From contig PHAF01000002.1 in NCBI GenBank assembly GCA_002841605.1, positions 1 to 40,458 of the forward strand: DNA of 40,458 nucleotides. Direction: 5' to 3'. Source of the DNA: Firmicutes bacterium HGW-Firmicutes-10. Its GTDB lineage: Bacteria; Bacillota_I; Bacilli_A; Erysipelotrichales; Erysipelotrichaceae. The translations under genes were made by a program, and so were the position numbers. Below, piece by piece: positions 14,971 to 37,416 of this stretch. Under the pieces are notes generated by a model that had not been told where the DNA came from, made no database searches, and was given only the letters and a program-made list of their open reading frames with translations. Position 1 is the first letter of the stretch. Every line of letters starts with the position of its first letter.

Positions 14971-16506
14971 ATGAACAAAAAGAGATCTCACTTACTGATT
15001 TCAGTTTCTATCTTAGCTCTATTGATACTCATTGTTTCGGGCTGTTCTAAAAAGCCGGGTAATGATCTTTTGAATATGAAGTTTACCAAAGTGTATGTGG
15101 GTGGCTGGATGATGGAAACCGAAGATCGTCAGAAGCCGTTAAGTGAGGCGGATCGACTCGAGATCACCAACATCATTCAAATGTCGAAGTGGACATATCA
15201 AAAAGATTTGTCAGTGACTACTCAAAAGCCGATCATTGTTTTATATGATGCTTTAGGTGCGAAAGTTTCGATCAGTGAATATCAGGGTCAGGCCTTGGTG
15301 TATTATGTCGATGCATCAGCGCGCAACCGGGAGTTCTATTTTGCGCCGGCGGAGATATTACCGTTAATCAAAGCATTTAATGCACGTATAGAGCCGGATT
15401 TGGTCATTGGGGACAATGAAGAGTTGCCGGCGGAGTTATTGAACGTGTGGTTTACAAGCGCTTATGTAGGGCCTACACAAGACGCTACAGAGGATAAGTG
15501 GTTTGAATTAAAACAAGAGGACAGTTTGTATATCCGTGCGATGTTGGATATGAGTCGTTGGAGTGAAGCAAAGGACTTATCGGGTTATGCCTTTGAGTCT
15601 TACTATATGTTGAAAGGTGACGGGGGTTGGACGTTAAGTGTCGGTGTGCTTGCGGAGCAGGCCTTGGTGTCAGTCATCAACCCGCAAGTGGGTTATGCGC
15701 GTAAAGTGTTTTATGCGCCGATCAGCGTTTTGGGTGAAATTGAGGAAGTGTTACGTCGTTTGAGTCCGGTGATAGAAGTGGAAATCGTGGAGTTTATCAA
15801 TGCCAATCTCTCGCGTGCATATATCGGGGATTCCTGGATGGAATGGGATGGCAAGTGGTTTGATTTAAGTGAACCGCAGGGCAGTGAATTGCGCAGTTTA
15901 TTACGCATTGAAGACTGGATCGTGGCACATGATTTGCCGGCAAGGGGACTCGATGTGATTTACATCGTATCTTCGGATGACGGCATCTCGTTGTCGGTTT
16001 GTATTTGGGATGAGGATCGTTCTTTAGTCGGTGTGTCAGTAGTTGATAATGATATCGTGCGCAGGGAGTTCTATTATGCGCCGGTGACCATTATTTTGGA
16101 CGGTCAGAATTTGTTGACACAGATCCGTCCGGCATCGAAATATCCGCAGCTGAGTGAAGAATTGTTGAATGTGACGCTCATTGAGGTGTTTACCGGTGTC
16201 TGGTCGAATGACCCGGATGAGTTTGTGGAAGAATGGAGTGCCATAAGCGCGGAGAATGCGGTAGCATTAAGAGATTCACTGTCATTTGATTCTTGGGTCG
16301 TGGCGGAAAATCTGCCGCCGGTCGGGTTGAATCCGCAGGTATTGGTTAGAAGTGCAGATGGTATCCGGATATTTGGAACGATATTTGATGGTAAGTCGCT
16401 CTTTGGGGTGACCAATGAAGATGGTAATTCCCCGGCTCAGTATTATTTTGCGCCGGAGTGGGTCGTTGAGTTTTTAGTGGATTTATTGGAGTCGCTGGGA
16501 TACTAA
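14971..16506 (+). CDS. Lipoprotein composed of four divergent repeat modules, family not recognised
   Basis: Lipobox IVSGC; repeated LLNxxFTxxYVG ... W..AKDL ... FYYAP pattern four times. Confidence 0.85.
   Translation: MNKKRSHLLISVSILALLILIVSGCSKKPGNDLLNMKFTKVYVGGWMMETEDRQKPLSEADRLEITNIIQMSKWTYQKDLSVTTQKPIIVLYDALGAKVSISEYQGQALVYYVDASARNREFYFAPAEILPLIKAFNARIEPDLVIGDNEELPAELLNVWFTSAYVGPTQDATEDKWFELKQEDSLYIRAMLDMSRWSEAKDLSGYAFESYYMLKGDGGWTLSVGVLAEQALVSVINPQVGYARKVFYAPISVLGEIEEVLRRLSPVIEVEIVEFINANLSRAYIGDSWMEWDGKWFDLSEPQGSELRSLLRIEDWIVAHDLPARGLDVIYIVSSDDGISLSVCIWDEDRSLVGVSVVDNDIVRREFYYAPVTIILDGQNLLTQIRPASKYPQLSEELLNVTLIEVFTGVWSNDPDEFVEEWSAISAENAVALRDSLSFDSWVVAENLPPVGLNPQVLVRSADGIRIFGTIFDGKSLFGVTNEDGNSPAQYYFAPEWVVEFLVDLLESLGY
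15067..16500 (+). repeat. Four protein-level repeats of about 108-113 codons (approx. 15067-15390, 15436-15765, 15796-16128, 16162-16500)
   Basis: Each repeat ends in EFYFAP / VFYAP / EFYYAP / YYFAP and contains a W-x(2)-A-(K/H/E)-(D/N)-L segment. Confidence 0.8.
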
Positions 16507-16685: not shown

Positions 16686-16829
16686 TTACTCCTTTGTGTT
16701 CTTTTCAACGGTATATCCACCACCGGTACAGCCGTGGACGTTTTTGCGTTCTTTACCTAATATCCAGGTAAACACTCCGATCAAAGCACCGACGATCACA
16801 AAGGAAAGGATGACTTCAATCTCAGACAT
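16686..16829 (-). CDS. 47-aa single-pass membrane protein with KNVHGCTGGG motif (absent from the ORF list)
   Basis: MSEIEVILSFVIVGALIGVFTWILGKERKNVHGCTGGGYTVEKNTKE; ATG overlaps the cpsD stop (AATGTCTGA), suggesting translational coupling. Confidence 0.72.
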   Translation of the reverse strand: MSEIEVILSFVIVGALIGVFTWILGKERKNVHGCTGGGYTVEKNTKE

Positions 16830-17622
16830 TGGTTTTACCCCTTTTGTCCTCTTTACGGACTTTCTTTTTGCGCTGTTTCAACTGTTGACCCAGCGTTTTG
16901 TTTTGTACGGTATTGTAATAATAACTGTAATAGGAATTGCGTTCTTCTTTGATCATCGTAACGCAGGTACCGATCACGTTGATGCCAGCCCGTTTGCATT
17001 GAGTCAAGGCAACTTTGGCGTGTTCTTTTTTGGTTTGCTCACTCGCAACACAGAAGAGCATGCCATCGGCTGCAAGTCCGACCGGAATGGCGTCGGGTAC
17101 CGGTAGTACCGGGGGGCCGTCCATAATGATCATATCGAAGCGCAGTTTCAGAAAACCAATGAACTCGCGAAAGCGCTTGGATGATAACATTTCGGCCGGG
17201 TTGGGGACATTGGGTCCTGAAGGCATGACGTAGAGATCATTTGCAATGTTGGGGTGCTTGATCTGTTGGACGTATTTCAGTACATTGAATCCATCGTTTT
17301 TAAAGTTAAGCAAAGCATCGGAGAGTCCGTTGCCATTGGATAAGTGAAACAGACGGTGAATATCCGGGATTCGCAAGTCACAGTCAATCAACAATACGCG
17401 TTGGCGATGTGAAGCCATAACGACAGCCAGATTAGCAGATGTAGTGCTTTTGCCCTCTGCAGCGTTGGCTGATGTGACCACAAGCACATTGATGTCGCTG
17501 TTAAAAGCGGAAAATTCGATATTTGTGCGCAAATGTCGGTATGCTTCACTGTGATCAAACACATATCCGCCATTTGAATTCTTTGGTTTTTCTCGTAAGG
17601 TGACTAAATTGATTTTTTCCAT
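16822..17622 (-). CDS. cpsD: CpsD/CapB-family bacterial tyrosine kinase
   Basis: SANAAEGKSTTSANLAVVMA Walker A, VLLIDCDLRIPDIHRLF Walker A', IIMDGPPV; C-terminal tyrosine cluster NSYYSYYYNT; ATG 17622 with SD AAAGGGGGATCCC. Confidence 0.93.
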   Translation of the reverse strand: MEKINLVTLREKPKNSNGGYVFDHSEAYRHLRTNIEFSAFNSDINVLVVTSANAAEGKSTTSANLAVVMASHRQRVLLIDCDLRIPDIHRLFHLSNGNGLSDALLNFKNDGFNVLKYVQQIKHPNIANDLYVMPSGPNVPNPAEMLSSKRFREFIGFLKLRFDMIIMDGPPVLPVPDAIPVGLAADGMLFCVASEQTKKEHAKVALTQCKRAGINVIGTCVTMIKEERNSYYSYYYNTVQNKTLGQQLKQRKKKVRKEDKRGKTNV

Positions 17623-17647
17623 GGGATCCCCCTTTAAGCATAGGTCA

Positions 17648-17676
17648 ATTATAGCGAGCATGACCAACGTTGTAAA
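17648..17676 (-). promoter_or_regulatory. Promoter for cpsD operon
   Basis: On the minus strand TTTACA (17676-17671), 17-nt spacer, TATAAT (17653-17648). Confidence 0.8.
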
Positions 17677-17755
17677 GAGTTGAGGAGCTTTTACAGGTGT
17701 TTGTTTGTTTGGATTTTCGTTTTTTGTATTAAAGTATTCCATCTTTGAATTTGTT

Positions 17756-17764
17756 TGGTATAAT
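17756..17764 (+). promoter_or_regulatory. Extended -10 promoter element for cpsC-cpsB
   Basis: TGGTATAAT about 20 nt upstream of the cpsC start; -35 is weak. Confidence 0.55.
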
Positions 17765-17785
17765 GTTTCGGTAGGGGGTAGTGCA

Positions 17786-18487
17786 ATGGAAGAAAAGTAT
17801 TTTGAAGAAAATGAGCGTGAGTTTGAGATAGATCTGGTTGAGCTATTGGCTATTTTATATAAGCATGCGCTGTTAATCATTTTAATGACGGCATTGGGTT
17901 TGACGATTGCTTTTGCGTATACGCGCTTTTTTGTTAAGCCGACGTATCGCAGTGAGTCAACGGTATATATCCAACCGGAGGTCAAAGAAGGCAATTTAAA
18001 CTTGAATGATTTAAACGTAAATCAGCGTTTGGTTGGTACGTATACGCAGCTGGCGAAAAGCAATGCGGTGTTAAATCAGGTTGTTCCGTTTTTTACGAGG
18101 GATAATATGGATGTGGACAGTATTCGCTCGGCGGTGTCGGTTTCGGCGATCGGCGATACACAAATCATTCGTGTCTCAGCGGTCACCATCGATCCGGAAC
18201 TTTCCGCGCGGTTGACCAACCGGGTGGTCAGTGTGTTCATTGAGGAAGTCGTAGAGACGATGACCATCGATAACTTGAGGGTCATCGATGCGGCGACGGT
18301 CAATACCAAAAAAGTAGGTCCCAATACGACGTTGAATACGGCGATCGGTGGTTTGCTTGGGTTGATGTTGTCGGTCGGTTTCGTCTTTTTGAAACTGATG
18401 TTGGATCGTACGATCCATAATCGTCATGACGCAGAGAAAGTATTGAATTTACCGGTGTTGGGTGAAATCAATTTTTATGAAGAATAA
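17786..18487 (+). CDS. cpsC: Wzz/CpsC-type chain-length determinant and kinase adaptor
   Basis: EIDLVELLAILYKHALLIILMTALGL, YRSESTVYIQPEV, second TM LGLMLSVGFVFLKLMLDRTIHN; ATG 17786 with SD tagggggtag. Confidence 0.9.
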   Translation: MEEKYFEENEREFEIDLVELLAILYKHALLIILMTALGLTIAFAYTRFFVKPTYRSESTVYIQPEVKEGNLNLNDLNVNQRLVGTYTQLAKSNAVLNQVVPFFTRDNMDVDSIRSAVSVSAIGDTQIIRVSAVTIDPELSARLTNRVVSVFIEEVVETMTIDNLRVIDAATVNTKKVGPNTTLNTAIGGLLGLMLSVGFVFLKLMLDRTIHNRHDAEKVLNLPVLGEINFYEE

Positions 18488-19253
18488 GTTTATCGATACG
18501 CATTGTCATGCCTTATGGGATTTTGATGATGGGGTCAAAAATAAAGATGAGGCGTTGGCGTTGCTTCGCTGTGCACATAGCACAGGGATTGCGACGCTTT
18601 TTGTCACTCCGCATAAGATCATTGAGGGCATGTATGATCCGACCATAAGCGAAATCGAACAAAAGCTCTCTGACCTAAAAAATCTAAGTCAAGAACACAA
18701 ACTCCCGTTAGAACTTAAGTATTCCAGTGAGTTTCGCATCAATGAAGAGTCAATCAAAGCCATTATCGAACAAAAGTATATTTGTTATCAGGATACAAAC
18801 TGGCTGTTGATTGAATTTACGCGTAGGACCATCGATTCGCGGATGATTGAAGATGCGATTTACGAACTCGACCGGATAGGCGTCAAATTGTTGATCGCGC
18901 ATCCGGAAAGATATTTTGACAATGAAAGACAAGCCGTAGCGACATGCAAGAAATGGCAGTCATGGGGATGTTATTTTCAGATCAACCGGACCAGTCTGTT
19001 AGGCATTCACGGAGAGCGGGCCGATAAGATTTCCTGGCGGCTGGTATCTGAAGGTTTGGCACATATCGTCGCATCCGATGCCCATCAGGGGCAGGGGAGG
19101 CGTGAATGCCGATTGGACGATGTGCATGCCATGATTGAAAGAAGATATGGTAAAGACACGGCCGATGATCTTTGCATACATAATCCGCAACGACTGACCA
19201 ACAATGAGTCGTTAATCGACATTTCCATAAAAAAGGCTTGGTGGCGCAGATAA
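18477..19253 (+). CDS. cpsB: CpsB/YwqE-type PHP-family tyrosine phosphatase
   Basis: DTHCHALWDFDDGVKN, FVTPHKIIEGMYDP, LLIAHPERY, HIVASDAHQ; ATG 18477 overlaps cpsC stop. Confidence 0.9.
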   Translation: MKNKFIDTHCHALWDFDDGVKNKDEALALLRCAHSTGIATLFVTPHKIIEGMYDPTISEIEQKLSDLKNLSQEHKLPLELKYSSEFRINEESIKAIIEQKYICYQDTNWLLIEFTRRTIDSRMIEDAIYELDRIGVKLLIAHPERYFDNERQAVATCKKWQSWGCYFQINRTSLLGIHGERADKISWRLVSEGLAHIVASDAHQGQGRRECRLDDVHAMIERRYGKDTADDLCIHNPQRLTNNESLIDISIKKAWWRR

Positions 19254-19255
19254 GT

Positions 19256-19282
19256 AAGAGAAAGTGATTTCTCTTTTTTTCT
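19256..19282 (+). terminator. Terminator for cpsC-cpsB
   Basis: AAGAGAAA-GTGA-TTTCTCTT followed by T run. Confidence 0.75.
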
Positions 19283-19284
19283 TA

Positions 19285-19432
19285 AAATAAAGAAAACCAG
19301 CACCGGGGGGCGGTGCTGGCTTTGTAGGATTCGTGAGTTCCCTCATGATAGTTGTGACGTCTTGGGGGAAGCCGCCACGGGTTCCGTAATCCTTGTCGGA
19401 AATGTGTGTGGGGGGGATTGCATTTCCGACAT
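19285..19432 (-). ncRNA. Candidate structured small RNA with C-rich loops
   Basis: Minus strand: promoter elements, 10-bp 5' hairpin GUCGGAAAUG...CAUUUCCGAC, central GGAUU...AAUCC domain, 3' terminator hairpin CCAGCACC-GCCCCCC-GGUGCUGG then UUUUCUUUAUUUU. Confidence 0.65.
19297..19319 (-). terminator. Intrinsic terminator of the candidate small RNA
   Basis: 8-bp GC-rich stem with UUUUCUUU tail only on the minus strand. Confidence 0.8.
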
Positions 19433-19437
19433 TTGAA

Positions 19438-19466
19438 ATATTATCACATATTTTAGGTGTTGTCAT
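19438..19466 (-). promoter_or_regulatory. Candidate small RNA promoter
   Basis: Minus strand ATGACA (19466-19461), 17-nt spacer, TAATAT (19443-19438); overlapping extended -10 TGTGATAAT. Confidence 0.6.
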
Positions 19467-19608
19467 CACTTATTATGAGAAATGAAAAAAATTTCACGTC
19501 TTGTCATGTTCGTCTATTTTAAGTGGTTAAAAAAAGAATCTTTGAAACAGTTTTCATTGAAATATATAGTAATTTTTATCATTAAAAATGAAATATGCCA
19601 ATATAAAG

Positions 19609-19637
19609 TTGTGAAATTTGTGTGATTATGATATATT
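19609..19637 (+). promoter_or_regulatory. Promoter for capD and locus B
   Basis: TTGTGA (19609-19614), 17-nt spacer, TATATT (19632-19637). Confidence 0.6.
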
Positions 19638-19652
19638 CATTCCGTTAGGGGT

Positions 19653-21512
19653 GTGGGGCTCTTGAAAAAATATCGTAGCATTCTTCTGTCTTTAACCGAT
19701 ATCGTGATGGTGCTTGTAGCATATTTTCTTGCTCTTTGGATCCGTCTCGATTTTTCTTTGCGTAATATTGCATTGTTTCATCACTTAATAGAACTGATTC
19801 CAGTAATTGCAATTACCTATTTACTTGCGCTTAAAATTGCGAGAGTTGATAAAACACTGTGGACTTCTCCGAGTGTTGATGAAGCTTTGAGGGTTACGTT
19901 AGCAAGTTTTGCCGGATTTATCGTTGTTTATAGTTACTGTGAACTGATGACAGAGGTCCATCTGCCTAAGAGTGTGCATATTATAGCGCTGATGCTCGTC
20001 GTTTTGATCTTGATATTTGTAAGGTTTACATATCGTATCTACCGGTTGTTATTATCAATCGGTCAAAGCAAATCGGATAATCTTAAGCGGACGTTGATCG
20101 TTGGTGCTGGAGATGCAGGTACGATGTTGTATAAAGAAATCGTTCAAAATCGCAAATATAACAACAAAGTGATTGGATTTCTGGATGATGATGATTATAA
20201 AGTTGGAAAACTGGTTATGGGAGTACCGGTTTTGGGTAAATCTACTGATGCGAAAATGGTTGCTATGAAGGAAAATGTCGAGGTCATCTACATTGCCATG
20301 CCTTCGGTTTCCGTTAAAAAGCAAAATCAGATCGCGCAGTTGTGTCATTCAAGCAAAGCTAAAGTATTTATGATTACCGGAACGCAGGACATGATCAGTT
20401 CTACCGGGATTCAGCGTTCGATTCGTGAAGTATCCATTGAGGATTTGTTGGGTCGAAAAGAAATTCACTTAAAGCAAGATGATTTAAAGCAATTGCTTGT
20501 CAATAAAAGCATACTGGTTACCGGTGCCGGCGGTTCAATTGGCAGTGAACTGGTCCGCCAAATCATTCAATTCTCTCCCAAAAGCATCATCATGTTGGAT
20601 ATCAGTGAAAATTCGATATACGAATTACAATCAGAACTGAATATTTGGCGTAAGGAAAAAAGGATTTCCGACGATGTGGAATACATTCCAATCATCGGTT
20701 CGATAAGAGACTTCGCGGCATTGGATATGATATTTGAAAGAGGTAAGTTTGACTTGGTCTTCCATGCGGCAGCGCATAAACATGTGCCACTGATGGAGAT
20801 GATGCCGGCGGAAGCTGTAAAGAACAATATCTTCGGTACCCAGCACATCATCGAGCTTTGTAAGAAACACAAAGTGATGAAGATGGTTCATATCTCTACG
20901 GACAAAGCGGTCAATCCGACCAATGTCATGGGAGCGACCAAGCGCTTTGTGGAGAAGATGATTCAGGCGGAAAGCAAAGACGGATATACCAAGTTTGCGG
21001 CGGTGCGCTTTGGCAATGTATTGGGTTCCAATGGAAGTGTCATTCCGCTCTTTAAAAAGCAGATTGCCAGCGGTGGTCCAGTGACGGTCACCGATCCAGA
21101 AATGATTCGTTACTTTATGACGATACCGGAGGCTGTCTCTCTTGTTCTTCAAGCCGCGACTTATGGTGAAGGCGGAGAGATCTTCGTATTGGATATGGGA
21201 GAACCGGTGAAGATACTGGATTTAGCGGAGAAGATGATATCCCTTGCCGGATTTGTTCCGTATCAGGATATCGATATCATTTTCACGGGATTAAGACCCG
21301 GTGAGAAACTCTACGAGGAATTACTGATGGATGAGGAAGGGTTAAAAGAAACTCCGAATCCATTGATAAAAATCACTCAGCCCATGACCATTTCAAAAGA
21401 ACAAATCATCCGGGAAGTGGAGTATCTTCGTAAAGTCGTATTGACCGATCAGTCGCGCGGTGAAATCGTGAAGGCTTTGATGGAAGCCGTTCCGACCTAC
21501 AGGCAGAGTTGA
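19653..21512 (+). CDS. capD: Membrane-anchored polysaccharide biosynthesis protein CapD/PglF-like (NDP-HexNAc 4,6-dehydratase)
   Basis: 619 aa; N-terminal TM segments, RTLIVGAGDAGTMLYKEI, LVTGAGGSIGSELVRQI, FHAAAHKHVPLMEMMPAEAV; GTG 19653 or TTG 19662 start. Confidence 0.92.
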   Translation: MGLLKKYRSILLSLTDIVMVLVAYFLALWIRLDFSLRNIALFHHLIELIPVIAITYLLALKIARVDKTLWTSPSVDEALRVTLASFAGFIVVYSYCELMTEVHLPKSVHIIALMLVVLILIFVRFTYRIYRLLLSIGQSKSDNLKRTLIVGAGDAGTMLYKEIVQNRKYNNKVIGFLDDDDYKVGKLVMGVPVLGKSTDAKMVAMKENVEVIYIAMPSVSVKKQNQIAQLCHSSKAKVFMITGTQDMISSTGIQRSIREVSIEDLLGRKEIHLKQDDLKQLLVNKSILVTGAGGSIGSELVRQIIQFSPKSIIMLDISENSIYELQSELNIWRKEKRISDDVEYIPIIGSIRDFAALDMIFERGKFDLVFHAAAHKHVPLMEMMPAEAVKNNIFGTQHIIELCKKHKVMKMVHISTDKAVNPTNVMGATKRFVEKMIQAESKDGYTKFAAVRFGNVLGSNGSVIPLFKKQIASGGPVTVTDPEMIRYFMTIPEAVSLVLQAATYGEGGEIFVLDMGEPVKILDLAEKMISLAGFVPYQDIDIIFTGLRPGEKLYEELLMDEEGLKETPNPLIKITQPMTISKEQIIREVEYLRKVVLTDQSRGEIVKALMEAVPTYRQS

Positions 21513-22021
21513 TGTACTGGCACGTACTGTTTGTGCTGGGTGGTCATGAAGAGAAGATTGTAAACAAGATCAACGAATCCGACCACGAAGCCTTTCTTCC
21601 CAAGGTGAAGAAGCTGTTCAAGCGAAACAGCACAATCAACAAGGAAGATGTATTACTTTTCAAGAATTATGTCTTCGTAAAATCAAACGAAAATACCATC
21701 AATTTTCAAAAGTATATCCAAAACGAAATTCAACACATGACCGGATTTATCAAACTGTTAAAACATGACACGCACACGGAATCACTTTATCCCCATGAGA
21801 AGGAATTCCTGATGAAGTTTACCGATGAGGAGAATGTGATTGATGAGAGCCAGGGTTTGATCAATGGCGATAAGATCATTATCACTCAAGGCCCCTTGAT
21901 GGGATTTGAGAGTCTGATAAGAAAAATTGACCGTCATAAACGCATTGCACAGCTGGAAATCGATATGTTTGGCGACAAACGCACGATTACCGTAGGATTA
22001 GAAATCATCAGTAAGCAATAA
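21512..22021 (+). CDS. loaP: LoaP-type NusG paralogue (processive antiterminator)
   Basis: WHVLFVLGGHEEKIVNKI NGN-domain start, LLFKNYVFVKS, C-terminal KOW-like NGDKIIITQGPLMGFESLIRKID; sits directly before a long polysaccharide operon; ATG overlaps capD stop. Confidence 0.85.
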   Translation: MYWHVLFVLGGHEEKIVNKINESDHEAFLPKVKKLFKRNSTINKEDVLLFKNYVFVKSNENTINFQKYIQNEIQHMTGFIKLLKHDTHTESLYPHEKEFLMKFTDEENVIDESQGLINGDKIIITQGPLMGFESLIRKIDRHKRIAQLEIDMFGDKRTITVGLEIISKQ

Positions 22022-36175: not shown

Positions 36176-36249
36176 AAATTTTTTGTGATACGATGACGAA
36201 TGATTGTAATGCAATAGTAATAAATTGAAATAAAAAGGGGGATTTTTTT

Positions 36250-37416
36250 GTGTAGATTGCAATTTCTGGAACAGGTTATGTTGGATTATCCAATGCTGTT
36301 CTATTAGCACAACACAATGAAGTTGTTACTTTGGATATCGTTTCAGAGAAAGTTGAAATGATCAATCGGAGAATATCTCCAATTATTGATACTGAAATAT
36401 CTGAATATTTAAGGGATAAGAAGTTGAATTTGGTTGGTACCACGGACAAGTATGTTGCGTATCGCGATGCTGATTACGTTATCATCTGTACACCGACAAA
36501 CTATGATCCTGTCGTTAATTATTTTGATACTAGCTCTGTTGAGACGGTAATTCGTGATGTGTTGGAGATCAATCAATCAGCAGTCATGATTATCAAATCA
36601 ACCGTGCCGGTTGGATTTACGGAGAGAGTCAGACATGAATTTGGGTGTGATAACATCATTTTCTCACCGGAGTTTTTGCGCGAAGGTAAAGCGCTGTATG
36701 ACAATCTCTATCCGTCGCGAATTGTTGTGGGTGAAGATTCAGTTAGGGCTCGTGTGTTTGCGTCTCTATTGGCTCAAGGTGCGCTTAAAAGCGATATTCC
36801 AATGTTGTTTACCGGGTCTACGGAGGCGGAGGCTATAAAGTTGTTTGCGAACACGTATTTGGCGTTGCGTGTCGCATTCTTCAATGAATTGGACTCGTAT
36901 GCGGAGATTCGTGGATTGAATACCAAGGAAATCATTGATGGGGTAGGTCTGGATCCACGGATTGGATCCCATTACAACAATCCATCCTTTGGCTATGGTG
37001 GATATTGTTTGCCTAAGGATACCAAGCAATTACTTGCGAATTACAGTGATGTTCCTCAAAATATCATGTCCGCAATCGTGGATGCCAATCGTACCCGAAA
37101 AGATCATATTGCGGAGATGATACTCAGAAGAAAACCTGATGTTGTGGGTATCTATCGTTTGACCATGAAAATGGATTCGGATAACTTCCGTCAGTCCGCT
37201 ATTCAAGGAGTAATGAAGAGGATTAAGGCAAAGGGTGTCAAGGTTGTTATCTTTGAACCAGCATTGAAAGAAGAATTGTTTTTTAACTCAGAAGTGATTC
37301 GAGATTTCTCGGCTTTTAAAGATATGTGTGATGTCATCGTTGCTAATCGATTATCACCTGAGCTGTCTGATGTAAGTGAAAAGATTTATACTCGAGATAT
37401 TTTTAGTAGAGACTAG
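36250..37416 (+). pseudogene. UDP-glucose 6-dehydrogenase (Ugd-like) with in-frame TAG at codon 2; may still be expressed
   Basis: SD aaaaaggggga, GTG 36250, TAG 36253, then [28 protein letters not shown]... in the same frame as ORF 36331-37416; catalytic GGYCLPKDT present. Confidence 0.75.

Follow-up and report, generated by a model that had tools for sequence, protein, structure and literature searches.

The intergenic region between cpsB and capD in the capsule locus of Firmicutes bacterium HGW-Firmicutes-10 carries on its minus strand a small RNA gene which is conserved in four species, together with its strand, its structure, its invariant loops and its complementarity to capsule genes. 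On balance, we favour the view that this new and genus-restricted RNA represses capsule mRNAs by pairing with their Shine-Dalgarno (SD) sequences, that of capD in the first place.

Genomic context and conservation of the RNA gene

The window analysed here is the whole stretch of 40,458 nucleotides of contig PHAF01000002.1. The RNA locus spans positions 19285–19434 of its minus strand, between the end of cpsB (19253) and the TTG start codon of capD (19662), and is convergent with the former and divergent from the latter (Table 1). The preliminary description of the region had the sequence, strand and coordinates (19285–19432) right; the 5' end, near 19433, is an estimate from the -10 site. The minus strand of 19285–19432 folds at -54.5 kcal/mol, against a mean of -32.7 over 200 dinucleotide shuffles, none of which folds as well. 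The minus-strand promoter proposed earlier, ATGACA-17-TAATAT or the extended -10 form TGTGATAAT, was located by the scan, and the alignment of four species contains invariant runs TGATGACAACAC and AAAATATGTGATAA at this site. The only terminator-like site from a scan of the 2-kb region is that of the RNA itself, on the minus strand. Judged by its sequence signals, the RNA thus has its own promoter and Rho-independent terminator and is without a coding frame. The palindrome upstream of the promoter is a possible operator. Further copies of the promoter sequence, searched for in sampled genome stretches, were not convincing.

Table 1. Features of the RNA locus and neighbouring capsule genes (window coordinates)
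Feature	Position	Strand	Evidence or remark
Small RNA gene, ~145 nt	19289–19434	minus	fold z = -5.88; conserved in G004, G005, G006
RNA promoter, ATGACA (19466–19461)-17 nt-TAATAT (19443–19438), or extended -10 TGT-GATAAT (19448–19440)	19438–19466	minus	scan
Palindrome TGAAA-N4-TTTCA, upstream of RNA promoter	19483–19496		alignment; degenerate in G005
5' hairpin GUCGGAAAUG/CAUUUCCGAC, loop 1 CAAUCCCCCCCACACA	19395–19430	minus	alignment, structure
Segment CCCCACAC of loop 1, fully complementary to GUGUGGGG in capD leader	19406–19413	minus	alignment, start-region search
Middle domain: outer helix GGAUU/AAUCC and hairpin GUGGCG/CGUCAC with loop 2 UUCCCCCAA	19325–19393	minus	structure comparison
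Intrinsic terminator hairpin, C6 loop 3, then U-rich tail	19293–19323	minus	31 nt invariant in four species
cpsB, convergent with the RNA (CpsB/CapC phosphatase)	18462–19253	plus	Pfam PF19567, 162 bits
cpsB terminator, separate: AAGAGAAA-GTGA-TTTCTCTT and T run	19256–19281	plus	read from alignment
capD promoter TTGTGA-17-TATATT, predicted start ~19643–19645	19609–19637	plus	same spacing in the four species
capD leader and start CGTTAGGGGTGTGGGGCTC-TTG-AAAAAATAT, GTGTGGGG at 19651–19658	19643–19673	plus	31 nt invariant in four species
capD-like gene for a UDP-sugar dehydratase/epimerase, divergent from the RNA, proposed main target	19662–21512	plus	Pfam Polysacc_synt_2, 402 bits
loaP, NusG-type antiterminator	21512–22021	plus	NF033641, 145.5 bits (cut-off 125)
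cpsC, candidate target, whose start region GGTAGGGGGTAGTGCA is retained in G005	17786–18487	plus	rank 10/837 here, 10/522 in G005
cpsD tyrosine kinase, SD GGGGG, candidate target	16822–17622	minus	GGGGG in three species, surroundings diverging
Conserved lipoprotein-like gene, candidate target	14971–16506	plus	SD GGGGGG here; G004 and G005 have GGGGG, G006 does not

The data support a free-standing minus-strand gene rather than a cis-acting leader or riboswitch, as had been claimed. Instead of a same-strand gene, a convergent gene lies downstream of the RNA in all four species, namely cpsB or, in G006, an extra gene. The latter (contig L104, 490–792) encodes 100 aa with hydrophobic stretches and is located between the RNA and cpsB, indicating that the RNA is independent of the RNA–cpsB junction. 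The plus-strand terminator of cpsB, positioned just before the RNA 3' end, has a different sequence in each of the four species, and its function seems to be retained. That each species has its own diverged terminator argues for an end of plus-strand transcription at this point and for the minus strand as the one from which the conserved element is transcribed.

In a DNA search, the RNA was found in three of the six other genomes of the genus (98, 91 and 89% identity), all from uncultured Erysipelotrichaceae (HGW-Firmicutes-19, C8_maxbin.054 and RS262_metabat.bin.6). In the four-way alignment, it is 88–99% identical, versus 63–81% for cpsB DNA; the 31-nt terminator hairpin does not vary at all and the 5' hairpin hardly does. 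Invariant positions make up 18% of the spacer on the cpsB side and 35% of the upstream spacer. RNA and cpsB co-occur within the genus, with both present in four genomes and neither in three, one of which is 98% complete. Since the three genomes devoid of the RNA also lack cpsB, the RNA is a component of this particular form of the capsule locus. RNA and capD leader persist in G006 even though cpsB has no cpsC or cpsD beside it there. A covariance model run on 276 genomes from the family and on 320 from the order (316 besides the four carriers) recovered no further copy, and model and pattern searches outside the genus, in the order and in viral contigs, returned no match, the large model searches having been run with strict filters that can miss weak matches. 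The 21 exact pattern matches in genome contigs correspond to the three known relatives and to chance matches, L064 (14 bits) among them. The RNA is a new, narrowly distributed, genus-restricted family of the capsule locus; its kind, small RNAs with C-rich loops, is already known.

Structure of the RNA

The RNA consists of three stem-loop domains with a run of C in the loop of each. The 5' hairpin, the middle domain closed by GGAUU/AAUCC and the terminator, all recognized before, are kept in the four species, with standard pairs in 182 of 184 pair cells. The three C-rich loops are likewise invariant except for run length, so that unpaired C-rich motifs are conserved across species. Loop 1, of 16–18 nt, reads CAAUCCCCCCC(CC)ACACA, with C7 in the source genome and G004 and C9 in G005 and G006, and the computed opening energy of its core is zero. 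Loop 2, UUCCCC(C)AA, has C5 in the source genome (19364–19368) and C4 in G005. One hairpin of the preliminary description, the UGAG-GGAA-CUCA tetraloop, is not conserved: forcing its three conserved pairs costs ~6 kcal/mol in G005 and G006, and the structure common to the species has a CCC-GGG helix in its place. Covariation is present but weak. Two pairs of the outer helix are altered on both sides among species, which, with four sequences only, 60 of 500 shuffles also reach.

The capD leader as the best candidate target

The gene divergent from the RNA, capD, is the best candidate target and had been missed. Its leader, of ~18 nt and invariant in the four species, contains GUGUGGGG, a perfect 8-bp match to CCCCACAC of loop 1. 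The octamer GTGTGGGG is found in one of 836 start regions here and in one of 522 in G005, both times that of capD, and it also occurs upstream of a sugar-transferase gene in G004. Complements of loop 1 of at least 8 nt are present in only six of the 836 start regions (0.7%). The duplex between capD and loop 1 has an energy of -16.7 kcal/mol, and capD drops to 94th place among 837 if the cost of opening the target, computed on a genomic stretch, is included. On the predicted capD mRNA, opening costs 4.0–4.8 kcal/mol versus -14.4 for the duplex. The 31-nt block of leader and start was not found in 95 other genomes, with up to 3 mismatches allowed, and a capD paralogue in G005 carries a different leader. 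The conservation of the capD leader alone is not rare, because start regions match at 19 of 20 positions between the source genome and G005 in 8 of 73 comparable gene pairs. As leader and RNA are linked, their co-occurrence is not independent.

Other capsule genes and alternative explanations

The suggestion that the RNA may tune polysaccharide genes is supported in part. In the source genome, capsule-core start regions bind the C-rich loops better than the rest by duplex energy (p = 0.0003), and an anti-SD control shows no such preference (p = 0.48); in G005, the enrichment is not significant (p = 0.11). However, 20% of C-rich loops with shuffled bases perform as well as the real ones, so the enrichment reflects composition, that is, G runs. 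Capsule-core start regions are indeed rich in such runs: those of at least 5 G are kept before the lipoprotein gene, cpsC and cpsD (p = 0.003 in the source genome, p = 0.013 in G005), the SD runs of the three genes being 5–6 G long. In G004, they are present before the lipoprotein gene and cpsD, and that of cpsC is presumably present, judged from the reading frame. Background genes for these comparisons were called by a simple purpose-made gene finder, with approximate start codons, in 0.9 Mb of the source genome and a portion of G005; cpsD was added by hand. Complementarity to the SD is thus conserved for capD, cpsC, cpsD and the lipoprotein gene, subject to the same caveat on composition.

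Three target sites had been named previously. The GGGGG of the cpsD SD is conserved, whereas the site upstream of the 2000 gene is GGGGG here and GGTGGG in G005, and the putative ugd SD precedes a frame with an interrupted start in this assembly. The earlier interpretation is therefore partly supported: one hairpin and two of three named target sites are not conserved. In the ugd frame (window 36237–36331), GGGGGATT is followed by GTG-TAG in frame. As this interrupts the usual start, ugd appears to be broken or misassembled in the source assembly. The cpsBCD set is split (window 16822–17786), with cpsD on the minus strand and divergent from cpsC and cpsB, also in G004 and G005. The lipoprotein-like gene encodes 511 aa, is present in all four species and has no Pfam or NCBIfam match.

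The performance of shuffled loops, along with the many non-capsule genes that rank equal to or above capsule genes, would fit a global C-rich RNA which pairs with any GGGGG SD, with capsule genes among many targets and capD in no way special. We consider this unlikely, because the RNA is found only together with the capsule locus, and the exact match between CCCCACAC and GUGUGGGG, together with the invariant capD leader, points to a specific target. Less probable still is a decoy or scaffold function, in which an RNA-binding protein attaches to the C-rich loops and mRNA pairing is unnecessary. Both the loops and the stems, including that of the terminator, are almost invariant, exceeding what pairing loops alone would need, but nothing indicates a protein partner, and this reading leaves unexplained why complementarity to capsule start regions is conserved.

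We give very little credence to a plus-strand element of the cpsB–capD region, such as a LoaP recruitment hairpin on the capsule transcript. Such an element would be in keeping with loaP directly following capD and with the dependence of LoaP on a hairpin in the leader RNA of the operon that it controls (PMC12691694). Yet more pairs are broken on the plus strand (11 non-standard cells versus 2 of 184 on the minus strand), transcription of cpsB ends before the element in each species, and the conserved capD promoter lies after it. The known LoaP hairpin is of the UNCG type; none is conserved on either strand of the element, as judged by eye. Finally, a short protein gene can practically be dismissed: an 85-aa minus-strand frame covering the RNA is open in the source genome and G004, but changes in the length of C runs and elsewhere shift it in G005 and G006, leaving no reading frame common to the four species, and hence the locus is not a conserved protein gene.

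Comparison with known small RNAs

Among Gram-positive bacteria, a C-rich unpaired motif that pairs with SD sites is known from RoxS. Such motifs are also used by RsaE, SprD and FsrA (PMC4132741). The capsule RNA differs from these and other UCCC-loop RNAs in architecture and genomic place. Similar in design are LhrC1-5 of Listeria monocytogenes, in which the G-rich SD region of lapB mRNA is bound by three C-rich sites that are redundant, a hairpin loop and the loop of the terminator among them (PMC4132741). Three C-rich sites for SD pairing are also what we propose for the capsule RNA. However, LhrC is multicopy, has UCCC motifs and is controlled by LisRK, whereas the capsule RNA is single-copy, resides in the capsule locus, has pure C runs and ACAC, and is without an Rfam match. 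No Rfam family reaches its gathering score in the window; LhrC and RsaE are absent even among the weak matches at the locus under a relaxed threshold. One weak match is to ar14 (RF02344; 27.9 bits, E = 0.002, gathering score 58.8). The rhizobial SmelA075 has three hairpins, each with an anti-SD C-rich loop (PMC3927594), and its loop motifs suggest SD covering, as proposed here. From their shared CCUCCUCCC loop motif, ar14 and SmelA075 are presumably of the same kind. Given the score far below gathering, the CCUCCUCCC loops and the alphaproteobacterial hosts, the resemblance to the capsule RNA is one of analogy, not of membership. By analogy with the Listeria RNAs, the capsule RNA is likely an LhrC-like translational repressor of capsule genes.

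Proposed mechanism and implications

We infer that the RNA is expressed, pairs with mRNAs in the cell and represses them. The extended -10 promoter would yield an RNA of ~145 nt with three stem-loop domains. Loop 1, through CCCCACAC, and with less specificity the remaining C runs would pair with G-rich SD sequences of capsule mRNAs. The capD leader with its GUGUGGGG would be the main target, ahead of cpsC, cpsD and the lipoprotein gene. Ribosomes would be kept from entering, and translation of capsule genes would be reduced. Because its C-rich loops match the capD ribosome-binding site, the RNA probably turns capsule genes down.

Repression of capD could also lower the LoaP antiterminator, since loaP starts inside the capD stop codon (TTGATG) and its own SD is weak; the junction in G005, TTAATG, overlaps likewise. 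The RNA may thus gate the capD–loaP unit. A stronger version, in which the RNA serves to switch off a capsule antitermination circuit by blocking the capD leader and, via the overlapping start, LoaP, is speculative and in our opinion rather improbable. In G005, a further NusG-like gene (contig C27, near 32265), with an N terminus similar to that of loaP, is located after a second cps cluster.

In a limited literature search, no described Gram-positive capsule locus with its own small RNA adjoining the presumed target surfaced, and literature on small RNAs of Erysipelotrichaceae seems scarce. The two invariant stretches, the RNA loop and the leader of the neighbouring gene, match each other, which makes a sharp test possible. 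If the match proves functional, control by RNA would be added to the LoaP-type polysaccharide operons. In the off-switch reading, a single RNA borne by the locus would set the supply of enzyme and, along with it, how far the long capsule operon is transcribed.
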